From: Tolypothrix brevis GSE-NOS-MK-07-07A
Lineage (GTDB): Bacteria; Cyanobacteriota; Cyanobacteriia; Cyanobacteriales; Nostocaceae
DNA: 64,000 nucleotides
Direction: 5' to 3'
Assembly: GCA_019358985.1 (NCBI GenBank)
Contig: JAHHIJ010000018.1
Location: 1-64,000 of the forward strand
The position numbers and the translations under genes were made by a program. The notes beneath the pieces were generated by a model. That model ran no database searches, was not told where the DNA came from, and saw only the letters and a program-made list of their open reading frames with translations. Of the stretch, positions 24,827 through 54,476 are shown piece after piece. Positions within the stretch are counted from its first letter, which is position 1. Each line of letters opens with the position of its first letter.

Positions 24827-27800
24827 CTAAAAGGATAATACTGAAGGAAGCAAATCTTCAACCAATCGCAATAACTCATAACTTATCCCCGCAGTCCCCT
24901 GAAATAAACCAGGATTAAACACAGAACTTGGCAATTTCAAAAACTGATAACCTCCAGCAAGTTGAGCATCATTTACTATACAAGAAGCTCTTATAAGTGC
25001 CTCTTCTCGTAACTTTGGGCGGTCAAGTTTTTGTGCAGCTAATAATAGCATCTCTATCTTGCCAAAATTACCGCACTCAATAGAATCTACATCAATCAAA
25101 TCATTGGTGCGTGTAGTTCTTAAAACTAATTCTAATTCTTGATAAACATCATTTGTATTTAAAATAGATAAACTAGCTAAACGCGCTAAAAGTATTTCCC
25201 CTGCAATATCAAACCTGCTGGATTGAATATTTTCTTTTGGTTGTTGTAGAAACACACTCCGCTCATAAGTAATTGCTGCCTTTGCTGATGCTAAATAGGT
25301 TGAATCTGCGGTGACAGCATAGAGTCTGAGTAGAGCATAAGCAATTCCCCCTGCACCATGAAAGAAACCCGGATATTGCCCTTGTTGTAAAATATTCCAA
25401 GCTTGGGGTATTCCTGCCACCTTCACATGATGGTTTAATAAATGCTGACCGCAGTTAATAGCCCGTTCTAGAATCTTTGGCTCTTGAGTGTGCTGATAGA
25501 GGGACAACAACCCCAAAATAGCCCCAGATGCCCCATAAATAATATCAAATTGCTGGTCAGCCGCAATCAATTCGGGGGTAATGAGATTAGCAATCCCCAC
25601 TGCATCTTCCATAAGTGCAGGTTCCTTAAGAAATTGGCTAATTGTTACCAAACCGTAAATGAGGGAACCTAAACCCATACCACCCCCAATTCCTTGTCTG
25701 ACAAATCTGCGATGGGACTCAAAATCAAATGTCTGTAAAAACTTGCGGATAGAAAACAACGCTCCCATCACCAATTCTCGGAACTGGTTTGTTCCCCTCA
25801 CATAATCCAAAGCTGCCAAAAATAGAGCAATACCGCTATTACCGTTGTAGAGATTGTCACCCAAAGGTTCAAACTGAAAGCACTTAGCATTGGGAAAGTA
25901 GTTAAAACCAATCCACTGGACACTACCATCACTTCCCCAAATTGCCCGTGCTTGAATTTCCTCTGCCAGTCGCGTTGCTTCTTGAAGTAACTGTTCTTTT
26001 GTCAAAGAAACTAGGCGATCGCTCTGACTTTTCACAGAATCTGGAGGGATTGAATCTCTCTGTAAATTTATTGACTTACCTGGGGCATAAAAACACCCTT
26101 TAATAATATCTACTTGTCGCGCCAAATCTGCTTCACTCAAGTTTTCTAGCTGAGTCTGCACAGTTTTGTAACTTGGCTCCTGGAAATACTCTGCAATAGA
26201 TTCCCCTGGCTCTAACACCAGTTCATCGCTGCCAGGACAAGCACTAAAATAGGGAATATCTAACTGCTCCATTGCCTGGAGTTCCTTTGATAAAATCCCC
26301 CAATAGTGAGGTTTTTCGTCAACAACTAGAAAGGCTCGACTTAGGTGATCAATTTCTATACTTCTATCAATTCCATTACGCAGCCATTTTGGGGATTGAA
26401 TGTGTTGTAAAATTTTTGCATAAAGCTGCGACATCCTAAACATAAATCGTACCTGCACATTTTGCAATGCCGCCAAAGGGCTATTCTCAGCTAGTAAAAT
26501 ATGCTGCCGGGAGATTAACAAACGATACATCTGCTCAAATCCCCACACGATTTCATCAAGATAGTCGCCAGATTCCAGAGGTATACCATCTAACATGGGT
26601 ACGTTTGTTAGTGCAGGAGAGGGATGATTCTGACATCTGCTTAGGGCATTGTTTTGATAGGCAATGCAGCCATTTTCTAGAAAATCCCAACGAGGCAGAA
26701 GTCCGGTACGGACTACAGAATCCCAGAATTGTTTACCTACTATTTCCTCAACTTCCGTTACTTGGGGAAAGTCTGCCATCAGTTTTGCTTCTGGTTGCAT
26801 GAGGGTTTCCATATCCACCAGGACAAAATGTTCTCCATTGGCGACTAAATTCTCATGGTGACAGTCAGTTACTCTTAAGATATGCAGTAAACACAATAGC
26901 ATTCCCGATCGCTGGTAAAACCGTTGTGCTGCTGCTTGGTCTTTACAGGGTAGATGCTCAACATATTCTACCCAACCATAATCAGAGCGATCGCATATTT
27001 TCAAAACTTTGAAAGGTAAGGAAATATCCTGCTGATTGCACCAATCTAAGAACTGAGTAAAAGCTACTTCTGCCCCTAAACCTTTGGGTTTATATACTAG
27101 TTTTAGTCCCGACTCAAAGGTAAGGGCAATTACCGTTCTTCCTTGATGATGGGGATCGGAAAGGGAAGGCTTAATGTCAATGACTTTTCTTAGATGAGAC
27201 TGGGATGGTGAAAATATTTGCTGAATTGCTGCAATATCTGCTTGCAGACGCTGGAGAAAATCTGCTATTGCTTCCACCCAAAAATCAATAGCAGTTGCCA
27301 TTAAGCGTCCTAAAACGGGATATTGCTGGAAAAACCTTAACATTCCATCTTCTAAGAGGTTCTCCACAAAAGTATTGTATTCATCTTGAGGAGTAGTCTG
27401 GTTTTGTAATTGTATTTCCATCAGGGCAACAGAACGGGAATATTCTGCTGTCAAAGTTTTAGCACTGAGATTGAGTAGTTTTTCCAACAAGCTACACTCA
27501 AAAGTGAGGTAAGCGGACTTAGAGAGTATTTTTAAAGGTAGATGCTCGTCAGATAGGGAATTAGTACCCAGACGAGTTAATAACTGCTGTCGTGCCACAG
27601 AGATTGCCGGTAGCAATAGTTCTTGAAATGCTAAGGTTTGCGGATTAATCGGAGTCAATGATGGGGGATGAAAATTAGAAGCGGTTTCAATTATCGCCCT
27701 CAAAGTCTTTGCCCAAACTGGTAAAATTTGGCTATCCACCACAGGGAGCGATCGCAAAGCCTGCTGTACTTGCTCAACATCTAACCCGTCCCAAAGTAGC

Positions 27801-27970
27801 CGCTTCTGGAATTTTTCCCAGTTTCCGTGAGCACTTACCTTACACCACCCTTGAAGACGCGATGTTATCTGTTGTTCGCTATCAGTAACTTGTAACTCTT
27901 TGCCCAGACGTTCAGATAAACAGCTAGCTTGAGCAATAATCTGTGTTAAGTCAGATATTTTAACTTTCAT
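24827..27970 (-). CDS. LanM-type class II lanthipeptide synthetase with degenerate cyclase domain
   Basis: 1047 residues with the LanM two-part layout. The dehydratase half (DUF4135) has LVYKPKG (291-297), TDCHHENL (Asp369, His371, Asn374), VDMETL (Asp386) and the elimination-site pattern RFMFRMSQLY (Arg508, Arg512, Ser514 where Thr is usual). So Ser/Thr phosphorylation and elimination look feasible. The C-terminal LanC-like half (about 660-1047) keeps its toroid repeats (NGNSGIALFLAA, GASGAILGLLSLY, GFFHGAGGIAYALL, FQGTAGISYELL). The zinc ligands are not kept: the WCHG motif is replaced by RFDI (919-922), and the C[CH]G motif reads ECG (965-967). Thioether cyclisation by the usual zinc mechanism is therefore doubtful. 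It is transcribed alone, convergent with the putative precursor gene. Confidence 0.82.
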   Translation of the reverse strand: MKVKISDLTQIIAQASCLSERLGKELQVTDSEQQITSRLQGWCKVSAHGNWEKFQKRLLWDGLDVEQVQQALRSLPVVDSQILPVWAKTLRAIIETASNFHPPSLTPINPQTLAFQELLLPAISVARQQLLTRLGTNSLSDEHLPLKILSKSAYLTFECSLLEKLLNLSAKTLTAEYSRSVALMEIQLQNQTTPQDEYNTFVENLLEDGMLRFFQQYPVLGRLMATAIDFWVEAIADFLQRLQADIAAIQQIFSPSQSHLRKVIDIKPSLSDPHHQGRTVIALTFESGLKLVYKPKGLGAEVAFTQFLDWCNQQDISLPFKVLKICDRSDYGWVEYVEHLPCKDQAAAQRFYQRSGMLLCLLHILRVTDCHHENLVANGEHFVLVDMETLMQPEAKLMADFPQVTEVEEIVGKQFWDSVVRTGLLPRWDFLENGCIAYQNNALSRCQNHPSPALTNVPMLDGIPLESGDYLDEIVWGFEQMYRLLISRQHILLAENSPLAALQNVQVRFMFRMSQLYAKILQHIQSPKWLRNGIDRSIEIDHLSRAFLVVDEKPHYWGILSKELQAMEQLDIPYFSACPGSDELVLEPGESIAEYFQEPSYKTVQTQLENLSEADLARQVDIIKGCFYAPGKSINLQRDSIPPDSVKSQSDRLVSLTKEQLLQEATRLAEEIQARAIWGSDGSVQWIGFNYFPNAKCFQFEPLGDNLYNGNSGIALFLAALDYVRGTNQFRELVMGALFSIRKFLQTFDFESHRRFVRQGIGGGMGLGSLIYGLVTISQFLKEPALMEDAVGIANLITPELIAADQQFDIIYGASGAILGLLSLYQHTQEPKILERAINCGQHLLNHHVKVAGIPQAWNILQQGQYPGFFHGAGGIAYALLRLYAVTADSTYLASAKAAITYERSVFLQQPKENIQSSRFDIAGEILLARLASLSILNTNDVYQELELVLRTTRTNDLIDVDSIECGNFGKIEMLLLAAQKLDRPKLREEALIRASCIVNDAQLAGGYQFLKLPSSVFNPGLFQGTAGISYELLRLVEDLLPSVLSF

Positions 27971-32665: not shown

Positions 32666-35600
32666 TCATTTCCACTCGCCTTGAAGTGTAAATCCTGCCC
32701 AATAATATGGGGCAGCATAGTTCTTATTTTTTAACATTTCTATTTGTGCTTGCCTTAAAGCTGCCGCAGGTTTTAATTTGTCTTGCAACATCTTCTGATA
32801 AAATTTTGTCATCAATTCTGATGTGGCTTCGTCATCGACACTCCACAAGCTGACGACGACTCGCGGGCTACCTGCATACATGAAGCCTCTTGTCAATCCT
32901 ACCAATCCTTCTCCTTTGATTTCTTTGCCTAAACCTGTTTCGCAAGCACTGAGGACGATTAATTCTGCTGGCAAGTTGAGGTTAAATATATCGTGAAGTC
33001 GTAAAAAACCGTTTTGCGGCATTCCTTTGTTGTCAAACAGCGACAGCACTACCCCAGACAATTCTGGTTGCGTGCTATTAATGATGCCGTGTGTTGCAAA
33101 ATGCACAATTCGGTATTGACTAAGTTCGGGACTGGTTGCGATCGCTCGACTAGCGGCAAAGTCAAAAGCCTCTTTACGTAAGGCATTGGGAACTAAAATT
33201 AAAATGCGGTCGGCTTCGCTGCGCGTAAATGGTAAGCGATTAAATGTTACGCCTACATTTCTTGCAGATCTTGATAAATCGAGGTCGTTGACATTACGTT
33301 TGTCTACTGCCTGTTTTTGTGGTAATTTTAAACGTGGATCGTCACTGCTAAAAACTGGATCGGCAAGAATTGCGATCGCTTTCGGTGCTGGTTGACGGTT
33401 ATTTACTTCTTTGCGTAAAACTGCTAAAGTAGATACCGAGGGTAAATATACTATTTCGTGTTCAACTAATAAAGGCGTTGATTGTGTCTTTCCTGTTTGG
33501 TCTTTCGGGTTCGGCAATGCTCCAAACGGCAAATACTGCAACGCACCATCACTAACAATCACTAAACGCTTATTTCCCAACTCTTTCGCGACTCTTTGCA
33601 AAAGCATCTGACTCAGTTTGCTTGCGACTTCCACATCTGTAGGTGAATTGGAATTAGATACCACCGACATTCTTCTGTGTTTCTTCAGCGATTGATAAAA
33701 TTGCTTTGCGGTAGTTTCTATTTCTGCACGTTTAGGTAATTCGTAACTGGTAATGCTTGTTTTACTGACTGCCCAAAGATAACTGCGTTCTTCGCCTAGA
33801 GAATATTCTAAAACTAGGGTATCGTTATCAAGTAACTGCTGCTGTTGTGCTAATGTAAGAGACTGAGGTTGTGTAAGTGCAGCGTAACGGGGACTTGAGC
33901 TTCTAATTTGTGCTTTGACTTGTCGATATTGTTCTAAAAGCGCAGAAATTTCTTTTTGTAGCGCTTGCAGTTGCGCTTCTGTATTTGGTTTGCTAGATAA
34001 TTGAATTTGGCGTTTTTCCGTAGCGTCTAATTTTTGCTGCAAGTTGCGTTCAAGTTCTAGCAACTTCGGATCTACACCTTGACGAATATCAGCGTTAGCT
34101 TCATTCAACAATTCTACCAGACTGCGGGCGCGAGCGCGTTCACTAACTTGTAGCGCCAAAGCGTTGTATCCTTTATCTGGCTGCTGTTTGTGCGATCGCA
34201 TCAATAAGTCGATGTAAAACTGATAATATTTCTGTATCGAGGCAAAATACGAGCTTCGCAAATCTTGACTGGTAACGTTAGTGCGGATATCTTCAACGAT
34301 CGCTATCACTGATTCTATTTGCTTTTGCGCTACTTTGAAGTTGTTGCGATCGCGTTCGGTGACAGCAATATTATAAAGCGTATCTGCAACACCTGTGCGA
34401 TCGCCTAACTTTTGCCGCAACTTTATTTCCTGATTGTAAAAGTTAATTGCCTTCTCTGGCTGCTTTAATGAATTGTAAGCTTTGCCAATATTGCCTAAAG
34501 CGTTAGCTTCTGCTATGGGAATGCCGATTTTGGCAAATCTAGATGCTGCATCTTGTAAGGTATTTATCGCTTTTTGAGAATCACCTGATGCTAGATACAC
34601 CCTTCCAATAAAAGCATAAGCTGAAGCTTCACTAAAGCTGCTTTGTTGCTTCTGAGATAATAAAAGTCCTTGTTTGGCAACTTCCAGCGCTTTCGGATAA
34701 TCTTTTAAAGATTCATAAACTCTAATTACCCCAGTGAGTGTAGCAAATTCTTTAAACACATCTTTTTGTTCGCGCCACAATTTCAGTGCTCGATTGTAGT
34801 ATTCTAGTGACTTGGGATAATATAAAGCAATGTGGTAAACTGTACCTATATTATCAAGAGTTTGCGCTTCGAGAGTGCGATCGCCTATTTTTTGAAATAT
34901 TTCCAATGCTTGGGCGTAAGTATCAATACTCAGTTGATAATCTCCTAACTCTCTGTATACTTGAGCAATACTTTTCAAACTCTTCGCAACTCCCGAACGA
35001 TCCTGTACTTGACGCTGGAGAGTTAATGCTTGATTATATGTATCTAGCGCTTTCTGATAGTCACCGAATGATTGATAAATATCGCCAATACTATCAAGGG
35101 TGAAAGCTTCTCTTGCGCGATCTTGACTAGCACGTTGAAGTACCAAAGCTTGATTTAAAGATTCCAGAGCTTTTTGTTTATCCCCCAATTCATCATACAC
35201 TAAACTAATTGCCGTTAAAACTTCCGCTTCCCCGTAACGATTTCCGGCTTTTTGTAAAATAATACGTGCATTATTGAAGTATGAAATCGATGAAGGATAA
35301 TCGCCTAAAGATTTGTAACTAGCTGCAATACCGATGAGAGTTTGCGATTGTTGAGAAAGATTAAAGACAAGGGCAGCTCCAGTCAGACTTCCCTGGGCTT
35401 GTTGTTTCAGTTTCAAAGCTTGATTGAACGAGTTAAGTGACTGCTGATTTTCACCTAATGAAAGATAAATCAAGCCAATTCTATCATAAATCTCAGCTTG
35501 TCCGCTAATATCTTTTCTCGAACGTTGAATTTCCAATGCTTGATTTAAGATTGGTAAAGCTTTTTGCGACTCACCTAATGTAGTGTAAACTAGAGCGATC

Positions 35601-36235
35601 GCATTGAGTGTACTAGCTTGAGAGGCAGCATCTTTTGTGGTACGCTGAATTTCTAAGGCTTGATTGTAGGCATTGAGTGCTTTTTGAGTTTCCCCTAAAC
35701 TAAAGTAAACTCCACCAGTACCGACTAGCGTCATCGCTGCAAAATCAAGTTTTTTCTCACGTTGAAATAATGACAGCGCTTGGTTGTAAGATTGTAATGC
35801 CTTTTGCTTATCGCCCAAATTCCAGTAAGCACCAGCAACAGACGAAAGCATCACAGCTTCACCAAAACTATCTTTGAGTTCCCGTCTGATAACTAAAGCT
35901 TGATTGTAATATTCGAGTGCTTTTTGGTTTTGGGAAATTGTATAGTAAAGAGTGCCGATGCTTAAAAGTGTAGTAGCTTCAGAATTGCGATCGCCTATTT
36001 TTCGCCAAATTAAAAGCGCTTGAGAGTAAAGTGCGATCGCTTTTTGTCGAGATTCTCCCGTACCTTGCTGCAAAAGCTTCTGTGCTTCATCTAACAGTTG
36101 CTGTCCCTGAGCGGATTCTGGGGAATTATTTTGCGATTGAGCAATTTTCACACCTGGGACAGATGCGATCGCCACTACTGGATGCGACAACATCAGAATG
36201 CTCACAATCGCCGCGAAAGAACGATGAATCAGCAT
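32666..36235 (-). CDS. Secreted TPR-repeat protein with C-terminal CHAT domain
   Basis: About 1189 residues from the ATG at 36235; a GTG at 36265 would add ten. A signal peptide comes first (HRSFAAIVSILMLSHPVVAIA). Some 14-16 tetratricopeptide repeats follow (ALEYYNQALVIRRELKDSFG and variants), then a coiled-coil stretch (LQKLDATEKRQIQL), and the CHAT protease domain at the end with IVHFATHG (His) and LIVLSACETG (Cys). The CHAT domain sits on the export side if the signal is used. Family knowledge: such proteins are numerous in filamentous cyanobacteria, but their substrates are unknown. A repeat array lies upstream. The frame is intact. Confidence 0.85.
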   Translation of the reverse strand: MLIHRSFAAIVSILMLSHPVVAIASVPGVKIAQSQNNSPESAQGQQLLDEAQKLLQQGTGESRQKAIALYSQALLIWRKIGDRNSEATTLLSIGTLYYTISQNQKALEYYNQALVIRRELKDSFGEAVMLSSVAGAYWNLGDKQKALQSYNQALSLFQREKKLDFAAMTLVGTGGVYFSLGETQKALNAYNQALEIQRTTKDAASQASTLNAIALVYTTLGESQKALPILNQALEIQRSRKDISGQAEIYDRIGLIYLSLGENQQSLNSFNQALKLKQQAQGSLTGAALVFNLSQQSQTLIGIAASYKSLGDYPSSISYFNNARIILQKAGNRYGEAEVLTAISLVYDELGDKQKALESLNQALVLQRASQDRAREAFTLDSIGDIYQSFGDYQKALDTYNQALTLQRQVQDRSGVAKSLKSIAQVYRELGDYQLSIDTYAQALEIFQKIGDRTLEAQTLDNIGTVYHIALYYPKSLEYYNRALKLWREQKDVFKEFATLTGVIRVYESLKDYPKALEVAKQGLLLSQKQQSSFSEASAYAFIGRVYLASGDSQKAINTLQDAASRFAKIGIPIAEANALGNIGKAYNSLKQPEKAINFYNQEIKLRQKLGDRTGVADTLYNIAVTERDRNNFKVAQKQIESVIAIVEDIRTNVTSQDLRSSYFASIQKYYQFYIDLLMRSHKQQPDKGYNALALQVSERARARSLVELLNEANADIRQGVDPKLLELERNLQQKLDATEKRQIQLSSKPNTEAQLQALQKEISALLEQYRQVKAQIRSSSPRYAALTQPQSLTLAQQQQLLDNDTLVLEYSLGEERSYLWAVSKTSITSYELPKRAEIETTAKQFYQSLKKHRRMSVVSNSNSPTDVEVASKLSQMLLQRVAKELGNKRLVIVSDGALQYLPFGALPNPKDQTGKTQSTPLLVEHEIVYLPSVSTLAVLRKEVNNRQPAPKAIAILADPVFSSDDPRLKLPQKQAVDKRNVNDLDLSRSARNVGVTFNRLPFTRSEADRILILVPNALRKEAFDFAASRAIATSPELSQYRIVHFATHGIINSTQPELSGVVLSLFDNKGMPQNGFLRLHDIFNLNLPAELIVLSACETGLGKEIKGEGLVGLTRGFMYAGSPRVVVSLWSVDDEATSELMTKFYQKMLQDKLKPAAALRQAQIEMLKNKNYAAPYYWAGFTLQGEWK

Positions 36236-36360
36236 TCTATCACTTTTAATTTTGGGGTTTATCACCGTAATTATACCTTATATAGATACTTTCTCACGTT
36301 GTATAAGTCAGATTAGCACCTATGTAGCCACTATCTTGGCACTGTTACATATTTGAGAAC

Positions 36361-41505: not shown

Positions 41506-44500
41506 TTAAAAGCGCTTTTCATACTCAAACACAGCATTAATCCCACATGAGTAAGTAGAAGTATTGTCCCCATTGTCACCATTTGTCGCAGAACAATTAG
41601 AGTTAGTGAATAAAGGTGCAGAACCACGCAGACGCAAATTATCGTTTATTCGGTAGTTAACACCCAATTGTAACGGGTCATCGGCAGTCAAAATCTTGAC
41701 ACCAGAAACAGAAATTCTCGGAGTAATATCAACTCCTGCCTCCGCTCCCAATTCCAGACTCGAAGAATTGCTGACTGCTGAAATAGTTGGGAATAAACGG
41801 AATTCACTTAAGCCAAATGCATTGCCAATCTGGTTAAAAGTTCCCTGAAGGTTAAGAGCAGAACCTGCGAGGTTGGCAAGTGCCAGGGTACTGTCCCCAC
41901 TTCCCAGCGTGTTGACAAAGCTACCACCAAGTAAAGCGACAATTTCAGTTTCAGTACGATTAGGAGTGCTTGTTAATTCTAAATTTTGGTCAAGTTGGCT
42001 AGCCAAACCTTGAACAACTGCTTCTACTCGAATAGTTCTAATCGGTTCAAAGTTCGGAATGATACCATCATTGTCGTTGATTTCCGATGATACTGATGTG
42101 GTACTCACCCTAGTGGGAACAGCATCCAGCACCTTGGCTAATAGCCGGACATCTAGTGCAGGGTCAAGTCCTCTTTCTGGAGTAAAGGTTGCCGTCTGTT
42201 CATAACCACGAGCAAGGTTAAATTGGGTAGTATACAAATTCACACCCCCATTTCGGAGGGTAATAACTCCAGAGGGTAGCAAATTACCCAAAGAGCCGTT
42301 GATGATAAGCTTACCAGTAGCTCCAAAACTGATAAGAGGTGGACGGACAACTTTTACATTTTTAGCTAGCTCAAGCTCTAAATTACTAAATCTGGTCGTT
42401 GTCATAGTGCCGTTGTTGGCGTCTTTGTTTTGCTTCAGCGTTTTAGCAGAGGAGGGTGGAACGCTTACATTGTTATTTGTCGGCTGATTAGCGTTGGTAG
42501 ATTCTGCTAACAAGACTTCACCATTTGTCAACTGTACTTTACCGCCAATTATTGGGCTAAGTGCAGCACCAGTAATTCTCACATCCCCGCTAGCACCACC
42601 TTGATACAATCCTTTGAGATTTAACGCCAACTGGTCAAGAGTAACCCTTAAGGGATTGCCTATTTTTACTTCCCGATTGGAAATAGGAATCTCTCCCGCA
42701 GCTGCTACCTTACCCCGGCTATAATTACCCTGGAGATTTTCCACTAAAATACTGTTAAAATTAAACAGCACTCTGCCGTTGACATCTGTCAGTTGTCCTG
42801 GCAAAGCTTGAGCCGAAAAAACACCATTGTTGATACTGGCACTTCCATTCACAATTGGATCTTGTCTTGTCCCCCGCACTCTTAAGTCTATTTCCCCCTG
42901 ACCATTTTCCAACGCCACTTGGTTAGTAAACAGATTTAATAACGCTAATCCTTCATTTTTCACCTTTACATCTAGCTGAATTTCATTGCTATCTGGTGCT
43001 ACTGATGCAAAAGGAAACTTGTAGGGAATGCTACCACTGATGTTGACTGGTTCTGGACCAGAAACCTTGAGTTGACTGCCAAAGTTAAGGCGCCCGTTAG
43101 CATAAGCAAAAGTTGCAGCTGCTGATTCTACCGGCTTTTGATTGAGAGTTCCTTCAGTAACTTGCAATTCCCCCCTAGCTTGGGGGTTCTTAGTACTGCC
43201 GGCTAAAGCTACTGAAGCGTCCAGATTACCTGTAAAACCAATTGGCAGTTTGACAAAATTATTCAGTATTCCTACGGGGAAATTATTAACTCGCAATTGA
43301 CCGGATTGTTCTTCACTACCGATCGCACCTGTAAAAGCGATCAGTCTGTTTTGAGACTCCAGTCGTAAAGGTAACAATGTTAGAACGTTATTTTCCAAGC
43401 TACCTTCGGCAATTACTTTTTCGGCACTATAACAACGATCTATTTCTAAACATTGATTTTGTTTGTCTTTTGCACCCAAAACAAAGTTTTGACCATTCAA
43501 ATCAAACTTCACAGCCAGTCCTTTTGCTGTACCTGTTTCCACAGCAACTTCACCGTTGAAAGTGCCAGTTAAATCTGCCAATGCTGGTAGAATAGAAGCA
43601 TTCTCCTGCTCTTGTTTTTGTGCTAAAAGTGCATCAATTTCATAAAAGCGCTGGAGTTGCGTAAATAAAGGCTGGCTTGGTAAACCTTGTGGGATGGTGA
43701 CTAAATCCGCAGCTTTACCATAAGTTGGTGCTTCGGAACCGCGTTGTAAATCTTGGATTTCAAATAACTCTGCTATAACCAAGACATCTTGAATGTTACC
43801 TTGATTAATGTTAACTTTACCTTGCAGTTGCGGTGTTTTGTCATTTTGCTTCAAAGTGCCGCTGAAAGCATAGCGACTGTTGCCTTTAGCAAATTCGCTA
43901 TCTGAGAGTGTTGCGACACCATTGTTGTAGTTAAACTGAGCAAAAAAGCGATCGCCTTTAATTCTGCCAACTTCTGGTTTATCAATATTAATATTACCCG
44001 TTGTCGCATACGTTCGCTGATTAACCTGTAAATCTCCAGTTATCAATCCTGCGATGGCATTTGCACCTAAACGAATATTTGCTGGTGGACTTAATTTTAA
44101 TACTTGCAATGGGAAATTATTGACTTGCACCGCCAAATTATCTCCTTGACTGCGACCAATTGCCGATGCTTGCTGCCACTGCACTACAAAGGATTCAGGA
44201 CGATTATTTGCATCTAGGTTAAAAGCAATGCGATCTGTAGAGACGCGATTAATCGCGTCTCTACCTATTAGATCCAAATTTAAACCACGTCCCTGCACTG
44301 ATTCAACTTTGCCACTCAACACTGGCTCAAAAGCCAAATTATTTACTACAAAGTCGCGTAAACTGAGTTGCCCTTGCACATTTGGCAAAGGCAACTTGCC
44401 GGTGACTTGTCCGCTAAAATCAGCCTTCCCTGCCAAGGCTACCGCATACGGCAACTTGAAAGGCAATTGTTGCAGATTGTAATTTTGTGCTTGTACATTC

Positions 44501-47500
44501 AGATTTAAATTAGTAATTTGCGGGATACTTGCGTTCGCGTTGACAAATATATCACCACTGACATTTAAATCGGGAGCCGTAGCTTTGACAATCGTCAGCT
44601 TTTGACCATTCCAGGCGATCGCAGCATTCAAAGGTTTCTCAAGTCCAGGAATCCCTTGAGATAATTGTACATCACCAGCCGCACGCACATCTGATAATTT
44701 GGGTGATACCACTGTTCCCGCTATTTGCAACTTACCGCCCAAATCCCCGCGTAATTGCTGATTAAAGCGGTTTAATTCTACACCCGAAGCCGCCACTAAA
44801 GCTTGATAGCGACCATTGGCAAGTTGAATATCTGAAGCTGTAACCGTCCCACCGGCAACATTTACCCGCGCTTGACCGGTAGCTTGAATATTTTGCCGCT
44901 GGGATGCTTCCAAACTTCCCGCTACATTAAATTGTCCGTTTAAATCACCTTGAAACTGCGATGGCACCTTTGCCAAACGCTGCAAAGGTACGTTATCTGC
45001 TATAATTTGAGCTTGATAGCGATTATTCGCAAGTTGAATATTTGATGCTGTAACCGTACCCTTGCCAAAATTCACCCTTGCTTGACCGGTAGCTTGAATA
45101 TTTTGCCGCTGGGATGCTTCCAAACTTCCCGCTACATTAAATTGTCCGTTTAAATCACCTTGTAACTGTGGTGGTACTGATGGCAAACGCTGTAAAGGCA
45201 CATTATTCGCTTGGACTTGCGCTTGATAGCGACCATTGGCAAGTTGAATATTCGCAGAGACGTTCCGGCGGAACGTCTCTACTGTACCCTTGCCAAAATT
45301 CACCCGCGCTTGACCGTTAGCTTGAATAGTTTCTGGTTGAAACGAACTTGCGCTACCTGCCACATTAAATTGACCATTTAAATCACCTTGGAACTGTGGT
45401 GGTACTGACGGCAAACGCTGCAAAGGCACATTATTTGCTTGGACTTGCGTCTGATACACCCCATTAGCAAGTTGAATATTTGATGCCGTAATTGTGCCAT
45501 TTCCCACATTCACCCGTGCCTGACCAGTTGCTTGGATGGTTTCTGGTGTAATTGATTCGGCGTTTCCTGCCACCTGAAACTGCCCGTTTAACCTACCGCG
45601 AAAATCCTTAGCTGCGGGTGCCAATTGTTGCACAGGTACATCACTTGCCCGCACTTGTGCTTGATACACCCCATTCGCAAGTTGGATATTTGTAGCTGTA
45701 ATCCCACCACCAACGGCTAAACGTGCATTGCCTGTTGCTTGGAGAGTTTTTATGCTAAAATTATCTCTGGTGGTTGCTATTTGGAATTTACCTGCTAAAG
45801 GTGCTTGTAAAATAGGTGGTGCCTTTTTCAGTACTCGTCCCAGTCGGACACCTTCTGCAATTAATTGAGCGGAAACGTTTTGCTCTTGGAGGTTGATGTT
45901 AGAAATTGCAACAGTACCACCACCAATTTGAACTTGTCCGTTTTCCGAGTCAATTTTGGCAATTTGAAACGGACCGGTAGTGCCGGATAATCTGAAACGA
46001 CCGTTTAAATCTACCCCAGCAAGAGAGACATTTTGCAGTGGAGAGACGCGATTAATCGCGTCTGTACGTTCTTCTTTGTTTACAAACGGTTCTAACTGCA
46101 CACCTTTAGTTTGAGCTACAGCTTGCCAACTTTGATTGGCAAAACTGCCCTTTGCGACTACTGTACCGCTAGCGACACTAGCAACCACATTGCGGAAAGA
46201 GACGCTTTTATCTGGTGCGATCGCTAATTGACCAGTTGTGGGATATGTAGCGCTTGGTGCTTTAAAGTTTACCACAGTTTGGACATTACTACCACCGCCA
46301 CTTAAATTAGCATTGCCAGAAACAGTCCCTATTTGCACATTTGATGTATTTACGTCATAAACCTTTGCAAATGCGTCTCCAGGCAGATTTTTGGCGCGGA
46401 AATTGACATTGATTTGGGGAACTTCACCAAGAGCGATGGTGCCACCACCAGTCACATCACCGCCTAATTTTACCTTACCTTGAATATCTTTCAGGGTAAT
46501 TAGGGAAGCAGCAGTGGAAAAATAAAATTTACTGCGGAAGCTGTCAAAATCAACTTTGTCAATTTTGGCAGATTTGGTGCTGACAACTGTACCTGAGAGA
46601 AATGGTTTAGAGATTCCCCCGCTAAGGAGCAAGTCGGTTTTTACTTCTCCACTTACAGCTAAAGGCGATTTTACCTTGAGAGTATCTATTGCATTGGCTA
46701 CACTTACTGGTTGCGATCGCGCTGTCAAATTAAATCCACTTGTTGTATCAATGATGCCATTAGCTACCAATGGAATTTTACCATAGCTAGTCGCCACATT
46801 ATCAACCTTAATTTGCGTACCTTGGAAATTAAGATTTCCTTGGGAATTGACAAATGCTTGTGGCACTTTGGGAATCTGAAATCGCACTCCCTGTAAACTA
46901 GCGCTTCCTTGTAATAAAGGTTGTTTTTTCCCGTTTAATTCAACTTGTAAATTACCATTAGTTCGCCCCGCCTCTAATATTAGTGGTAATTTGATCACAC
47001 CAGTGATATCAGAAGCAAGAAAATCTTGCGCTTGAACCTTTAACTTAGCTTGTTGTATCGCTCCTCCCTCTACACGCACATCTCCCCCAAGGGCAATTGT
47101 ACCCCCAGTATCTGGTAGCCCTTGCACGTCAAACCGAATCAGTTTGTTGTTTTCCAGAGGTTGGGCATAACCATTAAGCTGTGAAAACGCCACTGTTAGA
47201 GGAGTGGGAGAGGAGGGGAGGGGGGAAGCAGGGGAGGCAGGGGAGGCAGGGGAAGCAGAAGAAATTTCCCCTTGTCCCCCTGTCCCCCTGCCTCCTTCTC
47301 GATACGGTACTAAAACCAACTTGGCATTGCTAAAGTGAATTTTGTCTAAATCAGTCTTGATAGCGCCGCTTTTACTCGGTGGTGCGATGCTTGTAGTAAT
47401 CCAGCGTCCTTGTTGATCCTGTTCGATGTAGAGATCCGGATTGACAAGGGTGACATCTAGCTTTAAAGTACGCTTGATGACTAACTGTAATATATCAAAA

Positions 47501-47823
47501 CCTACATCCACGCCACCAATTGCAACTCGATCCGGATCTGTAGGTGTTGCCGGAATTGCTGAAGACTCAAAGCTGACTCCTGTAAGAGAAAATCCTTTAA
47601 CTTTTCCCAGTTTTACAGGACGGTTAAGTGAAGTAGTAAGATTTTGCTCTGCTAAAGGTGCTAACTCTTTTTGGACAAAAATCCACAATCTCCAAGCACC
47701 CAGGGTAAGTCCAATCAATAAAAGTCCGCCCAAACCAATACTACCGCGACTTAGCACTAGAAACCAAAAACGTCTATTAGCACGAGCATTAGAGTTAGGA
47801 TCTTGATGGGGAGAGTTAGCCAT
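41506..47823 (-). CDS. tamB: TamB/Tic236-like translocation and assembly module protein
   Basis: A 2105-residue protein with one N-terminal membrane span (SIGLGGLLLIGLTLGAWRLW), then a very long beta-rich repeat body, and the C-terminal TamB domain (DUF490) containing FSNLELELAKNVKVVRPPLI, NLYTTQFNLARGYEQTATF and ETEIVALLGGSFVNTLGSG. Family members span the periplasm and help insert outer-membrane proteins or move lipids; chloroplast Tic236 is the relative. The middle holds five or more tandem repeats of about 80 residues (IQATGQARVNFGKGTVTASN, GDLNGQFNVAGS). Several intergenic-type repeats are inserted in frame (44237, 45256, 46041) and a low-complexity tract at 47199-47302. The frame is intact. 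It appears to be transcribed alone or with the GHL10 gene. Confidence 0.85.
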   Translation of the reverse strand: MANSPHQDPNSNARANRRFWFLVLSRGSIGLGGLLLIGLTLGAWRLWIFVQKELAPLAEQNLTTSLNRPVKLGKVKGFSLTGVSFESSAIPATPTDPDRVAIGGVDVGFDILQLVIKRTLKLDVTLVNPDLYIEQDQQGRWITTSIAPPSKSGAIKTDLDKIHFSNAKLVLVPYREGGRGTGGQGEISSASPASPASPASPLPSSPTPLTVAFSQLNGYAQPLENNKLIRFDVQGLPDTGGTIALGGDVRVEGGAIQQAKLKVQAQDFLASDITGVIKLPLILEAGRTNGNLQVELNGKKQPLLQGSASLQGVRFQIPKVPQAFVNSQGNLNFQGTQIKVDNVATSYGKIPLVANGIIDTTSGFNLTARSQPVSVANAIDTLKVKSPLAVSGEVKTDLLLSGGISKPFLSGTVVSTKSAKIDKVDFDSFRSKFYFSTAASLITLKDIQGKVKLGGDVTGGGTIALGEVPQINVNFRAKNLPGDAFAKVYDVNTSNVQIGTVSGNANLSGGGSNVQTVVNFKAPSATYPTTGQLAIAPDKSVSFRNVVASVASGTVVAKGSFANQSWQAVAQTKGVQLEPFVNKEERTDAINRVSPLQNVSLAGVDLNGRFRLSGTTGPFQIAKIDSENGQVQIGGGTVAISNINLQEQNVSAQLIAEGVRLGRVLKKAPPILQAPLAGKFQIATTRDNFSIKTLQATGNARLAVGGGITATNIQLANGVYQAQVRASDVPVQQLAPAAKDFRGRLNGQFQVAGNAESITPETIQATGQARVNVGNGTITASNIQLANGVYQTQVQANNVPLQRLPSVPPQFQGDLNGQFNVAGSASSFQPETIQANGQARVNFGKGTVETFRRNVSANIQLANGRYQAQVQANNVPLQRLPSVPPQLQGDLNGQFNVAGSLEASQRQNIQATGQARVNFGKGTVTASNIQLANNRYQAQIIADNVPLQRLAKVPSQFQGDLNGQFNVAGSLEASQRQNIQATGQARVNVAGGTVTASDIQLANGRYQALVAASGVELNRFNQQLRGDLGGKLQIAGTVVSPKLSDVRAAGDVQLSQGIPGLEKPLNAAIAWNGQKLTIVKATAPDLNVSGDIFVNANASIPQITNLNLNVQAQNYNLQQLPFKLPYAVALAGKADFSGQVTGKLPLPNVQGQLSLRDFVVNNLAFEPVLSGKVESVQGRGLNLDLIGRDAINRVSTDRIAFNLDANNRPESFVVQWQQASAIGRSQGDNLAVQVNNFPLQVLKLSPPANIRLGANAIAGLITGDLQVNQRTYATTGNINIDKPEVGRIKGDRFFAQFNYNNGVATLSDSEFAKGNSRYAFSGTLKQNDKTPQLQGKVNINQGNIQDVLVIAELFEIQDLQRGSEAPTYGKAADLVTIPQGLPSQPLFTQLQRFYEIDALLAQKQEQENASILPALADLTGTFNGEVAVETGTAKGLAVKFDLNGQNFVLGAKDKQNQCLEIDRCYSAEKVIAEGSLENNVLTLLPLRLESQNRLIAFTGAIGSEEQSGQLRVNNFPVGILNNFVKLPIGFTGNLDASVALAGSTKNPQARGELQVTEGTLNQKPVESAAATFAYANGRLNFGSQLKVSGPEPVNISGSIPYKFPFASVAPDSNEIQLDVKVKNEGLALLNLFTNQVALENGQGEIDLRVRGTRQDPIVNGSASINNGVFSAQALPGQLTDVNGRVLFNFNSILVENLQGNYSRGKVAAAGEIPISNREVKIGNPLRVTLDQLALNLKGLYQGGASGDVRITGAALSPIIGGKVQLTNGEVLLAESTNANQPTNNNVSVPPSSAKTLKQNKDANNGTMTTTRFSNLELELAKNVKVVRPPLISFGATGKLIINGSLGNLLPSGVITLRNGGVNLYTTQFNLARGYEQTATFTPERGLDPALDVRLLAKVLDAVPTRVSTTSVSSEINDNDGIIPNFEPIRTIRVEAVVQGLASQLDQNLELTSTPNRTETEIVALLGGSFVNTLGSGDSTLALANLAGSALNLQGTFNQIGNAFGLSEFRLFPTISAVSNSSSLELGAEAGVDITPRISVSGVKILTADDPLQLGVNYRINDNLRLRGSAPLFTNSNCSATNGDNGDNTSTYSCGINAVFEYEKRF
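44237..44264. repeat. In-frame palindrome GTAGAGACGCGATT/AATCGCGTCTCTAC in tamB
   Basis: A perfect 28-bp palindrome that encodes RDAINRVST between normal tamB sequence (LIG...DRIAFNLD). It has the same GTAGAGACG arms as the intergenic palindromes but a GCGATTAATCGC centre. A second, slightly changed copy lies at 46041-46066. Confidence 0.7.
45256..45280. repeat. In-frame palindrome AGAGACGTTCCG/CGGAACGTCTCT in tamB
   Basis: The intergenic GTTCCG-type core occurs inside a tamB tandem repeat. The affected unit reads GTVETFRRNVSANIQLANG, whereas sister units read GTVTASNIQLANN, so the extra residues come from the inserted palindrome. Confidence 0.75.
46041..46066. repeat. In-frame palindrome GAGACGCGATT/AATCGCGTC in tamB
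   Basis: The second GCGATTAATCGC-type core in tamB. It encodes TDAINRVSPL between EERTD and QNVSLAG. One arm has a G in place of C (TCTGTAC), so it is older or has drifted. Confidence 0.6.
47199..47302. repeat. G-rich low-complexity tract in tamB
   Basis: Short repeats of GGGGAGGCA and GGGGGACAA translate to a Gly-rich run and ASPASPASPLPSS near the N-terminus (about residues 175-207). The same kind of text is intergenic at 5957-6001 and 16730-16780, and is found inside ppsA at 53251-53367. Confidence 0.7.
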
Positions 47824-50750: not shown

Positions 50751-53700
50751 TCAAGCTTCAAGATTTTCGACTTTGGCAATTTCCAACATTGTTTTCAAAA
50801 CCGAATCTGGATTTAAGCTGATTGAGTCAATACCTTGTTCAACTAAAAATTGAGCAAATTCTGGGTAATCGCTGGGTCCTTGTCCGCAAATGCCGATTTT
50901 GCGATTTTTCTTTTTTGCAGATGCGATCGCCATTTTAATCATTCGCTTTACTGCTTCACTTCGCTCATCAAATAACCGCGCTACTAACGCTGAATCTCGA
51001 TCTAATCCCAGTGTCAGTTGAGTTAAATCATTAGAACCTATTGAGAATCCGTCAAATACTTCGGCAAATTCTTCAGCCATAATTACATTACTTGGCAACT
51101 CACACATTACGTAAACTTGCAAGTTATTGACATTTTGTTCTAAACCATTTTTTGCCATTTCTGTCAATACCAAACGTCCTTCATCGGGAGTGCGACAAAA
51201 AGGAATCATCGGGATGACGTTAATTAAACCCATCTCTTCGCGTACTCGCTTAATCGCCTGACATTCTAAAGCAAAAGCTTCTTTATAGCCTTCATCATAG
51301 TAACGCGCTGCTCCTCGCCAACCAAGCATCGGGTTTTCTTCGTGCGGTTCAAACTGTCTTCCACCTAATAAATTGGCATATTCATTACTCTTGAAATCTG
51401 ACATCCGCACTATCACAGGTTTGGGATAAAATGCTGCGGCAATTCTTCCAATCCCTTGAGCTAATCTATCTACAAAATATTGCGGTTTATCGTCATAAAG
51501 TGCAGTGATTTCGTCAATTTTATCTTGAACACTTTTATCTTCTAACTTGTCAAAATAAATCAACGCCATCGGATGAATTTGAATTTGATTAGCAATAATA
51601 AACTCTGTCCGCGCTAAACCCACCCCATCATTAGGAATTGTAGATAAACTAAATGCTTGTTGAGGATTGCCCACATTCATTAAAATTTGGGTGCGAGTGC
51701 GGGGCAAGTTTTCTAATTGAATTTCGTTGACTTCAAAAGGCAATAAACCTTGATAAACTCGTCCTTCTTCTCCTTCTGCACAAGACACCGTAACCTCTTG
51801 ACCATTTTTCAATACTTGTGTTGCATTACCGCAGCCAACAATTGCCGGTAAATTCAATTCCCTCGCGATAATTGCCGAGTGACAATTACATACAATAACT
51901 GGCGTATATTTGCTTGTGAATACAACATAGTTATGATGTTCAGCAACTGTAATATTGTAAACATCACCATCTGTTTCTTCATCAACTAAAACCACTCGCT
52001 GCATACGTGTGTTTCCTGCAAGTAGTTCTTCAAACAAGCCTGTTTCCTGAAGCTGTTTATCTGAAATTAGTAAATTATTATCTCTTCTGAGTTTGATTTG
52101 ACCTGTAACATCGTCGCCAAAAAGTTGGTTAGTGGCAAAGAAGCGTGTTTGTATTGTTCTTTCGGTAACTTCTCCCTTTACTCGTTTAGTAAAGTTGAAT
52201 ATTTCTGTAATTTTTTCAACCAATTGTACATTAGATATTCCTCTATTTTTTGTTACTGAAGGAACAGTACCTATTTTCAAACAAGCCACTATGACAGCTT
52301 GCAATAAAAGGTTTTCGGAGATATATATATTAATGCAATTGTTGAAGTAACAGCCATTTCCATCTATCACTCCCGCAAGGAAATTGTAAGCAAATTCTAC
52401 CGAGTTGTTCAGCAGAATGTTAACAATATTTTGCTCTTTTTCATGTAATTCGTAGGCATTTTTTTTAGAGTATAGTCTGTAAGTTGTTGCTTGATCTACT
52501 ACTAACTGACCTCTAATATAACCAGAAGATGCATTTTTTAAAGAAGGAACAAAAGATTTATTGCAAACCGCATTCAAACATTGATTCATCGCAGCTATAA
52601 ATTGCTGCTTTTCCAAAGTATCTTTCTGTATAAACTGTACCTCCCCATGAGTGCGGCTTCTGTAAATTGAACCATCTGTAAAAATACCGCCTAATAAATA
52701 AGCTAACTCTATCTTTTCTTTTTCATTTTCTTGCAACTGCGGAACATGTTCTGCTACTACCACCATTTCCCTGTGTGCTAGTATCTCTTGAATTTCGGTT
52801 TTTACATATTCACCATCTCTAATATTAATCATCTTATGATCTGGAGTTAGGCGCAAACAGTTATCAGTAACTCTACCTGTTTGAGACACGCTAACACCAA
52901 TCATCTTTGATTGCCTTTTCATTGAGTCAATAATTGGTTGCCACTCTATTTTGCTTGTTTGTGGATTTAACGATAGAGTTAATAATCCTTCGTGACCTTG
53001 CTCATAAATATCCTGCAAGGTCATAAAACCTTTATTTGTTAAAACCTTTGTTTCTCCATCAAAACATGTGCGTCCACCAGAGTTAGTAATAATTGCACTA
53101 GCGCGTTTCATGATCGGTTCCCAATCGGGATCAGTTCTTTCTGTTACAAGAATTTCTCCGGCTTTAAATTCATGGATTTTATTAACATCTAAAATTAGGT
53201 GAACTTTACCTTGGCTAATAGCTTCACCGACAGCGCGACCGGTGATTAGGAGAGTGGGAGAGGGGGAGAGGGGGAGAGGGGGGGATGAGGGAGATGAGGG
53301 AGATGAGGGAGAAGGGGAAAATTCCTCCTTACCCCCTTGTCCCCCTGTCTCCTTGTCCCCTTGGGGAGCATCCACTAATTGATAACTCCGCAAGACATTC
53401 TGCGCTTTCTGAGATTGCACTGTTTCCGGACGCGCTTGCACAATAAATAATTCGTTGGTAATGCCATCTTTTGCCCATTCGATGTCCATCGGGGTGAATT
53501 TGCCGTGAACTTGGGAATAATGGTCTTCTATTAAACATGCCCAATTAGCTAGTTGTAAAATCTCGTCATCTGCAAGGGCAAATTGAGCTTTTTCGTTTGG
53601 AGAAGCTTGTATATTTTTGGTAAGTTTTGAGCCGTCATCGTAGACCATTTTTAATTCTTTACTACCCAATCTTTTATCGACGATTGGGCGGAAACCTGCT

Positions 53701-54476
53701 TTTAAAGTTGGTTTAAAAACTTGATATTCGTCGGGGTTAACTGTTCCTTGGACGACGTTTTCACCTAAGCCGTAAGCAGCTGTAATTATTGCTGCGTCTT
53801 TAAAGCCTGTTTCTGTGTCAATGGAGAACATCACCCCAGAGGTTGCTAAATCGGAGCGCACCATTTTTTGCACGCCCACGGCAAGGGCAATGTTAAAATG
53901 GTCAAATCCTTTGGTCTGGCGATAGGAAATAGCGCGATCGGTAAATAGGGAAGCAAAGCATTTATGACAAGCTGATAATACTCCTCGGATACCAGTAACG
54001 TTGAGATAAGTTTCTTGCTGTCCGGCAAAACTAGCATCGGGTAAGTCTTCAGCGGTAGCGCTAGAACGCACAGCTACATCGGTGTCTGCGTTGTAGCGAT
54101 CGCATAAAGTTTGATAAGCTTCAATAATCCCTTGCCGTAATTCTAGAGGAAATGGTGTGTGCAGCAATAGCGATCGCGCTTTTTTCGCAGACGAGCGTAA
54201 ATTTATTACATCCTCAACATCCAAGTCTTCAAGCACTTCTCGCAGCTTTTCTTCTAAAGATGCTGATTCGATGAAATACCGATATGCATAGGCAGTTGTC
54301 GCGAACCCGTTAGGAACGTTAACACCTTTGGGTGTGAGTTGTTGAATCATTTCTCCCAGTGAGGCATTTTTCCCACCAACTAGAGGAATGTCAGCAATCC
54401 CGACTTCATCAAACCAGAGAATGAGCGATCGCTCTTTTGCTGAAACAGATAAAGTATTTTTAGATACTGCGTTCAT
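50751..54476 (-). CDS. ppsA: Phosphoenolpyruvate synthase interrupted by an intein
   Basis: 1241 residues as translated. The N-extein (1-470) is the ATP-binding domain (VGGKNASLGEMI, VAVRSSATAEDLPDASFAGQ, FIVQARPETV) plus most of the swivelling His domain. It breaks in NSGGRT, just before the phospho-acceptor Cys-His. Residues 471-864 are a LAGLIDADG intein. The C-extein (865-1241) resumes CHSAIIARELNLPAIVGCG and carries the PEP/pyruvate barrel (IGRIAAAFYPKPVIVRMSDF, VMCELPSNVIMAEEFA, IGICGQGPSDYPEFAQFLVE). Exteins together are 847 residues, slightly longer than usual because of a Pro/Ser low-complexity insert (about residues 370-408). The enzyme makes PEP from pyruvate and ATP. Without splicing it lacks a contiguous active site. 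It is transcribed alone. Confidence 0.9.
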   Translation of the reverse strand: MNAVSKNTLSVSAKERSLILWFDEVGIADIPLVGGKNASLGEMIQQLTPKGVNVPNGFATTAYAYRYFIESASLEEKLREVLEDLDVEDVINLRSSAKKARSLLLHTPFPLELRQGIIEAYQTLCDRYNADTDVAVRSSATAEDLPDASFAGQQETYLNVTGIRGVLSACHKCFASLFTDRAISYRQTKGFDHFNIALAVGVQKMVRSDLATSGVMFSIDTETGFKDAAIITAAYGLGENVVQGTVNPDEYQVFKPTLKAGFRPIVDKRLGSKELKMVYDDGSKLTKNIQASPNEKAQFALADDEILQLANWACLIEDHYSQVHGKFTPMDIEWAKDGITNELFIVQARPETVQSQKAQNVLRSYQLVDAPQGDKETGGQGGKEEFSPSPSSPSSPSSPPLPLSPSPTLLITGRAVGEAISQGKVHLILDVNKIHEFKAGEILVTERTDPDWEPIMKRASAIITNSGGRTCFDGETKVLTNKGFMTLQDIYEQGHEGLLTLSLNPQTSKIEWQPIIDSMKRQSKMIGVSVSQTGRVTDNCLRLTPDHKMINIRDGEYVKTEIQEILAHREMVVVAEHVPQLQENEKEKIELAYLLGGIFTDGSIYRSRTHGEVQFIQKDTLEKQQFIAAMNQCLNAVCNKSFVPSLKNASSGYIRGQLVVDQATTYRLYSKKNAYELHEKEQNIVNILLNNSVEFAYNFLAGVIDGNGCYFNNCINIYISENLLLQAVIVACLKIGTVPSVTKNRGISNVQLVEKITEIFNFTKRVKGEVTERTIQTRFFATNQLFGDDVTGQIKLRRDNNLLISDKQLQETGLFEELLAGNTRMQRVVLVDEETDGDVYNITVAEHHNYVVFTSKYTPVIVCNCHSAIIARELNLPAIVGCGNATQVLKNGQEVTVSCAEGEEGRVYQGLLPFEVNEIQLENLPRTRTQILMNVGNPQQAFSLSTIPNDGVGLARTEFIIANQIQIHPMALIYFDKLEDKSVQDKIDEITALYDDKPQYFVDRLAQGIGRIAAAFYPKPVIVRMSDFKSNEYANLLGGRQFEPHEENPMLGWRGAARYYDEGYKEAFALECQAIKRVREEMGLINVIPMIPFCRTPDEGRLVLTEMAKNGLEQNVNNLQVYVMCELPSNVIMAEEFAEVFDGFSIGSNDLTQLTLGLDRDSALVARLFDERSEAVKRMIKMAIASAKKKNRKIGICGQGPSDYPEFAQFLVEQGIDSISLNPDSVLKTMLEIAKVENLEA
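51885..53066 (-). other. 394-residue LAGLIDADG intein in PEP synthase
   Basis: Intein numbering: Cys1 starts block A (CFDGETKVLTNKGF). Block B has the TPDH motif (Thr74-His77). The homing endonuclease motifs are LLGGIFTDG (124-132) and LAGVIDGNG (230-238). Block F is DVYNITVAEHHNYVVF (about 368-383). Block G ends VIVCN (390-394), followed by extein Cys. So nucleophiles Cys1, Asn394 and Cys+1 are all present. Two departures: the penultimate residue is Cys where His is usual, and the second endonuclease motif has Asn237 where the catalytic Asp belongs. Splicing is likely but may be slow. PEP synthase inteins are known from archaea (established knowledge). Confidence 0.92.
53251..53367. repeat. 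G-rich low-complexity tract in ppsA
   Basis: Repeats of GGGGGAGA, GGGAGATGA and GGGGGACAA encode GDKETGGQGGKEE and a SPSSPSSPSSPP run in the linker between the ATP-binding and His domains. It resembles the tract in tamB (47199-47302) and the intergenic tracts near 5957 and 54533. Confidence 0.7.

Follow-up and report, generated by a model that had tools for sequence, protein, structure and literature searches.

The ppsA gene of Tolypothrix brevis, encoding phosphoenolpyruvate (PEP) synthase, is interrupted directly before its catalytic Cys-His pair by a segment of 394 residues. The locus raises the questions of what this segment is, whether the enzyme would have to be spliced before use, and how such an element came to lie in a cyanobacterial metabolic gene.

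The insert in ppsA and its position

Within the window (the whole stretch of 64,000 nucleotides that was analysed), ppsA was found on the reverse strand as a stop-free frame of 1241 amino acids at 50751..54476. The frame consists of an N-extein of 470 residues (53067..54476), the insert of 394 residues (51885..53066; precursor residues 471-864), and a C-extein of 377 residues (50751..51884), and all features described below lie on the same strand. The first insert codon, TGT for Cys1, occupies 53066-53064 and the last, AAT for Asn394, 51887-51885; the flanking residues are NSGGRT upstream and CHSAII downstream. The extein scored 1199 bits with the PEP synthase profile NF005057 (cut-off 598) and 1175.6 bits with TIGR01418 (curated cut-off 739.75), identifying the host as PEP synthase. 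In alignment with the solved PEP synthase 2OLS, the N-extein covers the ATP-binding domain and the start of the mobile domain, whereas the C-extein carries Cys+1, the catalytic His at +2, the PEP-binding domain and the stop. As the two aligned halves (chain 355-422 with query 405-472, and chain 421-790 with query 865-1235) meet at chain 421-422, the insert was located at the Cys-His of the mobile domain, for which the PpsA residues at 51879..51884 are the counterpart. The preliminary description had placed the insert at 51885-53066, predicted a spliced product of 847 residues and held that the phospho-histidine motif is split; the limits are exact to the base, 847 is the length left after subtraction of 394 from 1241, and the site is indeed the Cys-His of PEP synthase.

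Since the insert breaks the phosphohistidine motif, the unspliced precursor may fairly be expected to be inactive. The further proposal that gluconeogenic PEP would depend on splicing was weakened, because the same genome encodes a divergent, intein-free PEP-synthase-like paralogue of 783 residues with the sequence GGLTSHAA (TIGR01418, 441.9 bits against the cut-off of 739.75). A third protein of this genome has an ATP-binding domain similar to that of PEP synthase.

Elsewhere in the window, a 1240-residue protein with an nSTAND1 NTPase domain and WD40 repeats in 14 matched stretches is encoded at 19738-23460, a LanM-like lanthionine synthetase of 1047 residues (DUF4135 and LANC_like) at 24827-27970, a TPR-CHAT protein of 1199 residues with a caspase-like CHAT domain at 32666-36265, and a TamB-family protein of 2105 residues at 41506-47823.

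The nature of the insert was examined with profile models, conserved residues and structure prediction. Both NCBIfam terminus models scored above cut-off, intein_Nterm (TIGR01445) with 29.8 bits against 24.5 and intein_Cterm (TIGR01443) with 17.5 bits against 15.6, and both matched 14 of the 14 members of alignment A1 (E up to 0.1). Pfam Intein_splicing gave 35.0 bits on the insert alone, slightly below its gathering score of 35.8, and matched all 14 members, with a best E of 2.6e-10. LAGLIDADG_3 likewise matched 14/14 (E up to 0.1, best 3.9e-7), the Tolypothrix copy at E 0.0076, below the gathering score. Chance resemblance to inteins was rejected, as both terminus models are over cut-off and 46 copies occupy one site. 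The residues diagnostic of class 1 inteins, C1, T74, H77, H378, N394 and Cys+1, are invariant in 46/46 copies; after the junction, CHA follows in 44 copies and CHS in two. Block A reads CFDGETKVLT, with the nucleophile Cys1 at 53064..53066, and block B contains Thr74-Pro-Asp-His77 (TPDH, 52836..52847). Block F, VYNITVAEHHNY (51927..51962), also given as DVYNITVAEHHNYVV, has His378 at F:13 and Asn371 at F:4, a position usually held by Asp in inteins, both in every copy. The insert ends with Cys393-Asn394 in block G (51885..51890), so that the penultimate His, common but not obligatory in class 1 inteins, is replaced by Cys in 46/46. The placement of block F is our own; its position names follow PMC4031507, and the block names do so in part, as far as the sections consulted give them.

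Two LAGLIDADG-like motifs were detected in the middle of the insert. Motif 1, AYLLGGIFTDGSIY (52662..52703), aligns to motif 1 of I-DmoI and retains Asp131 (Asp in 45/46 copies), whereas motif 2, FLAGVIDGNGC (52350..52382), has Asn237 (52356-52358) in place of its last acid. In the structure model, the middle (residues 131-320) was predicted with pLDDT of 51-89 per 10-residue block, mostly 70 or more, and the splicing domain, for which a HINT fold is expected, poorly, mostly below 50. A Foldseek search with the middle domain matched I-DmoI structures with a best E of 1.8e-8, in agreement with a LAGLIDADG fold. Taken together, the insert is, judged by its sequence, a class 1 intein with a LAGLIDADG-like middle at the catalytic Cys-His of PpsA. 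The original assignment of a 394-residue intein between NSGGRT and CHSAII is thus borne out by sequence and by the NCBIfam terminus models. Its blocks A, B and F stood as described and block G came with Cys for the penultimate His; both LAGLIDADG motifs are present, the second with Asn for its last acid.

Occurrence and movement among cyanobacteria

In a sample of the phylum, 19 of 386 genomes matched the intein, 15 of them with the PEP intein at 62-100% identity and the other four with two RtcB inteins, one PurL-like intein and one further match (G350), while a PEP synthase match over cut-off was obtained in 135 of the 386. In a sample of the order, matches were found in 54 of 388 genomes, 30 with the PEP intein (62-100%). 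When 84,980 named bacterial and archaeal species genomes were scanned by a method limited to close relatives, the 14 loci returned were all cyanobacterial: Plectonema radiosum (93% identity), five Nostoc (77-80%), one more Nostoc (63%), and copies in Argonema, Aphanothece, an Oscillatoriales MAG, three Crocosphaera including C. watsonii WH 8501, and Synechocystis salina. All 46 copies, 29 read first and 17 later (16 from the order sample and one extra), show the same arrangement of GGRT, the intein from C to CN, and CH. All 30 empty homologues fetched, which are the best-scoring ones rather than a random draw, have an uninterrupted site, and in one genus (g5) five genomes carry the intein while four listed genomes gave no match. 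Comparison with ppsA of other cyanobacteria, the check that had been proposed, thus returned the same intein at the same site in filled copies and an intact site in empty ones. These findings indicate that the Tolypothrix intein is a further member of a PEP synthase intein family scattered across cyanobacteria.

Among the empty homologues, L038 reads GGKT-CHAA, and L055 and L057 (genomes G153 and G103 of genus g5) read GGRT-CHAS, that is, an intein-free GGRTCHASII where other empties have CHAAII; Ser at +4 beside the insertion site might affect homing. An intein in a PurL-like protein was observed at L021 (G133), where AIRS domains and the FGAR-AT linker flank Intein_splicing and LAGLIDADG_3 matches, and genome G464 carries, besides the PEP intein, a second, candidate match of the RtcB-intein kind. 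By tblastn of the intein, no phage- or plasmid-borne copy was detected in 50,697 phage and 72,556 plasmid records; a viral-contig scan with two short peptide patterns returned two loci at 25-27% identity.

The history of occupancy was then compared with that of the host protein. On a ppsA tree of 27 filled and 27 empty proteins, the filled state takes 9 changes, at least 8 of them forced by well-supported (starred) branches, against 18.5 for shuffled labels on the same tree, and occupancy is therefore patchy yet also clustered. This tree omits the empties L038, L055 and L057, which were unmatched by the script motif and are all uninterrupted; the duplicates L007 and L016 were omitted from both trees, and the shortened copy L037 from the AU comparison. 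In AU tests on 26 filled copies, the extein tree was rejected by the intein sequences (p 1.2e-49), and so was the intein tree by the extein sequences (p 3.9e-7). Of 63 close pairs, which are not independent of each other, 53 show a lower dS in the intein than in the extein; the remaining 10 comprise two pairs of identical duplicates, four with L037, and four of which three involve N. calcicola. Low intein dS together with tree conflict is the pattern predicted by homing between related cyanobacteria. A co-conversion gradient, in which synonymous identity in the extein rises toward the site, was not seen.

A strictly vertical history, with an ancient intein lost many times over, finds its best case in the Tolypothrix and Plectonema copies, which are 93% identical in the intein and 94% in the extein (dS 0.16 and 0.22); as the two parts diverge alike, recent shared descent suffices for this pair, and vertical inheritance may hold for it. 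For the family such inheritance is largely refuted and extremely unlikely, since neither alignment accepts the topology of the other in the AU tests and intein synonymous divergence is far below that of the extein in several pairs, for example L008-L014 (0.354 against 1.047). Patchy occupancy and the conflict between intein and host trees indicate instead that the intein homes among cyanobacteria, its dispersal between ppsA genes presumably being driven by the endonuclease. This explains the distribution without an archaeal donor. A cross-domain origin, by homing of an intein from the same site of an archaeal PEP synthase, would be in keeping with the existence of such inteins in archaea, as in Methanocaldococcus jannaschii, and with the conservation of the mobile-domain motif across domains; it is unlikely, as all 14 loci among the 84,980 species genomes, a search of close relatives only, are cyanobacterial, and the non-PEP inteins found to be most similar, at about 30% identity, reside in cyanobacterial RtcB. 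The choice between an ancient shared site and cross-domain homing, as the preliminary description had framed it, is therefore unsupported for an intein that is widespread and patchy in cyanobacteria with a tree of its own.

Splicing, the penultimate cysteine and the state of the endonuclease

We consider it very probable that ppsA carries a splicing-competent class 1 LAGLIDADG intein that homes among cyanobacteria, by means of an endonuclease that would be active in its relatives and has probably been lost recently in the Tolypothrix copy. The 1241-residue precursor would be converted to the 847-residue PpsA by self-splicing in the usual four steps: thioester formation at Cys1, transfer to Cys+1, cyclization of Asn394 and acyl shift. 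Cyclization would take place without the penultimate His, using His378 at F:13 and perhaps the conserved Cys393 instead. The opposite view, that the insert is cleavage-prone or dead, fails to ligate the exteins for want of this His, and leaves PEP to another enzyme, could call on the two unusual residues (Cys at G:6 and Asn at F:4) and on the divergent paralogue. It is very unlikely, as the nucleophiles and the helper His and Thr of blocks B and F are invariant in 46/46 copies, zero stops were counted within the frames of 30 order-sample copies, and, among close pairs that differ at all in the splicing domain, nearly all have dN lower than dS there, even if a few show a dN/dS of roughly 0.5 or above. 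In addition, a residue other than His at G:6 is found in about 5% of functional inteins (PMC4031507, section 6).

The Cys-Asn end was read in all 46 copies (38 distinct). For the first 29 copies, one extraction script demanded this end, and an earlier BLAST reading free of that demand gave the same end; no such requirement was set for the 17 later copies. Codon 393 is TGT in 36 and TGC in two of the 38 distinct DNA copies, and since synonymous changes are seen in the adjacent codons and Cys is retained at 393 throughout, selection seems to preserve this residue. As a control, the ends of 30 loci scoring best with intein_Cterm, a draw that favors canonical ends, were inspected; of the 27 that could be read, 23 have His and four Ser at the penultimate position. 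The absence of the penultimate His is already known for inteins; the family-wide invariant Cys seems unusual, and is by itself no new mechanism.

The Tolypothrix genome (G000) itself has further inteins or intein parts, at L087, L100, L102, L101, L103, L104 and L106. Nine intein_Cterm matches are listed, the ninth of which, in a 38-residue frame with a stop, was excluded. The end is His-Asn in DnaX, DnaB (two), GyrB and a ribonucleotide-reductase-like protein (two), the last host being named by motif only, and Ser-Asn in the C part of split DnaE, named by fragment and motif.

For DnaBi1 of M. smegmatis, the part of PMC6195587 consulted reports that oxidized active-site cysteines pause splicing. 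By analogy, Cys393-Asn-Cys+1 together with Cys1 could place PpsA splicing under redox control, an oxidized cysteine pair blocking it and reduction freeing the enzyme, although we regard this as quite improbable. If it were so, reduction, for example in the light via thioredoxin, would release active PpsA, and the intein in Tolypothrix, with homing probably lost, would persist solely as a switch. The invariant-Cys family offers a natural test of asparagine cyclization without His, and also of a possible redox response of splicing through active-site cysteines.

The last acid of a LAGLIDADG motif is required for cutting. In motif 2 it is Asp in 44 of the 46 copies and Asn in the Tolypothrix copy and in L037. 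Because Asn237 replaces this acid, the endonuclease of the Tolypothrix copy is probably inactive, with the splicing residues kept. Tolypothrix alone shows changes at three columns that are invariant in 25 other copies (a set without L037 and two duplicates): A195T, D237N and R244C, each located in the endonuclease region. Such a count is ordinary, with three private changes in Plectonema and seven in L017. Between Tolypothrix and Plectonema, dN of the endonuclease region (0.04) is still low relative to dS (0.21), which fits recent loss or an assembly error; as a single residue change, Asn237 could be the latter. On the favored reading, mutation of Asp237 to Asn would have ended endonuclease catalysis recently and left a copy that is splicing-competent and heritable, probably unable to home, with splicing likely maintained because the host requires PpsA. 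A decaying endonuclease was also observed in Nostoc sp. NOS (L037:5001-6101), where the intein is 367 residues long, the motif 1 region is lost, motif 2 reads IDRNG, and the splicing residues checked are still present. The family is a mobile intein of a central metabolic enzyme rather than a replication protein, with natural copies that are empty, active-looking and decayed.

Comparison with known inteins

The predicted middle domain aligned with I-DmoI over 186 columns, with a TM of 0.69 by target length and 17% identity, and the structures matched include I-DmoI E117A. The Tolypothrix copy differs from I-DmoI in lacking the second-motif acid.

Archaeal PEP synthase inteins, such as that of M. 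jannaschii, reside in the same host enzyme as the cyanobacterial PEP intein, and the M. jannaschii PEP intein reportedly also lacks the penultimate His. The M. jannaschii control genome matched the PEP synthase and intein models. Within the sections of PMC4031507 and PMC5874633 consulted, the class 2 KlbA inteins, with the penultimate Ser given for class 2 in PMC4031507, and the cyanobacterial DnaE inteins, with Ser or Ala, share the absence of His at G:6 with the PEP intein, in which the residue is Cys. In contrast to the class 2 inteins, which have no Cys1, the cyanobacterial PEP intein retains it.

No report of a cyanobacterial PEP synthase intein was found in the parts examined of PMC4031507, PMC7765530, PMC3610870, PMC5874633, PMC3655853, PMC7664689, PMC3990103, PMC6195587, PMC10643990, PMC5987646 and PMC3403396, so that an existing one may be missed. 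In the parts seen of these sources, two inteins are tabulated for Nodularia spumigena with their genes unnamed (PMC3610870), and five intein genes are given for one lichen Nostoc (PMC5987646).

The nearest non-PEP matches found are the cyanobacterial RtcB inteins (L019, L020), 25-31% identical to the PEP intein. They share with it Cys1, the LAGLIDADG_3 match, VYN at F:4 and a similar TEYYTP end, and differ in the host, the RNA ligase RtcB, and in block G, which is His-Asn in both copies read. The closest counterparts among known systems are the PEP synthase inteins of other cyanobacteria, for example that of C. watsonii WH 8501 (L033), presumably the C. watsonii PEP intein listed in InBase: it lies in the same gene at the same site, is 66% identical and has the same Cys-Asn end, and the Tolypothrix copy differs from it by Asn237 at the second LAGLIDADG acid.
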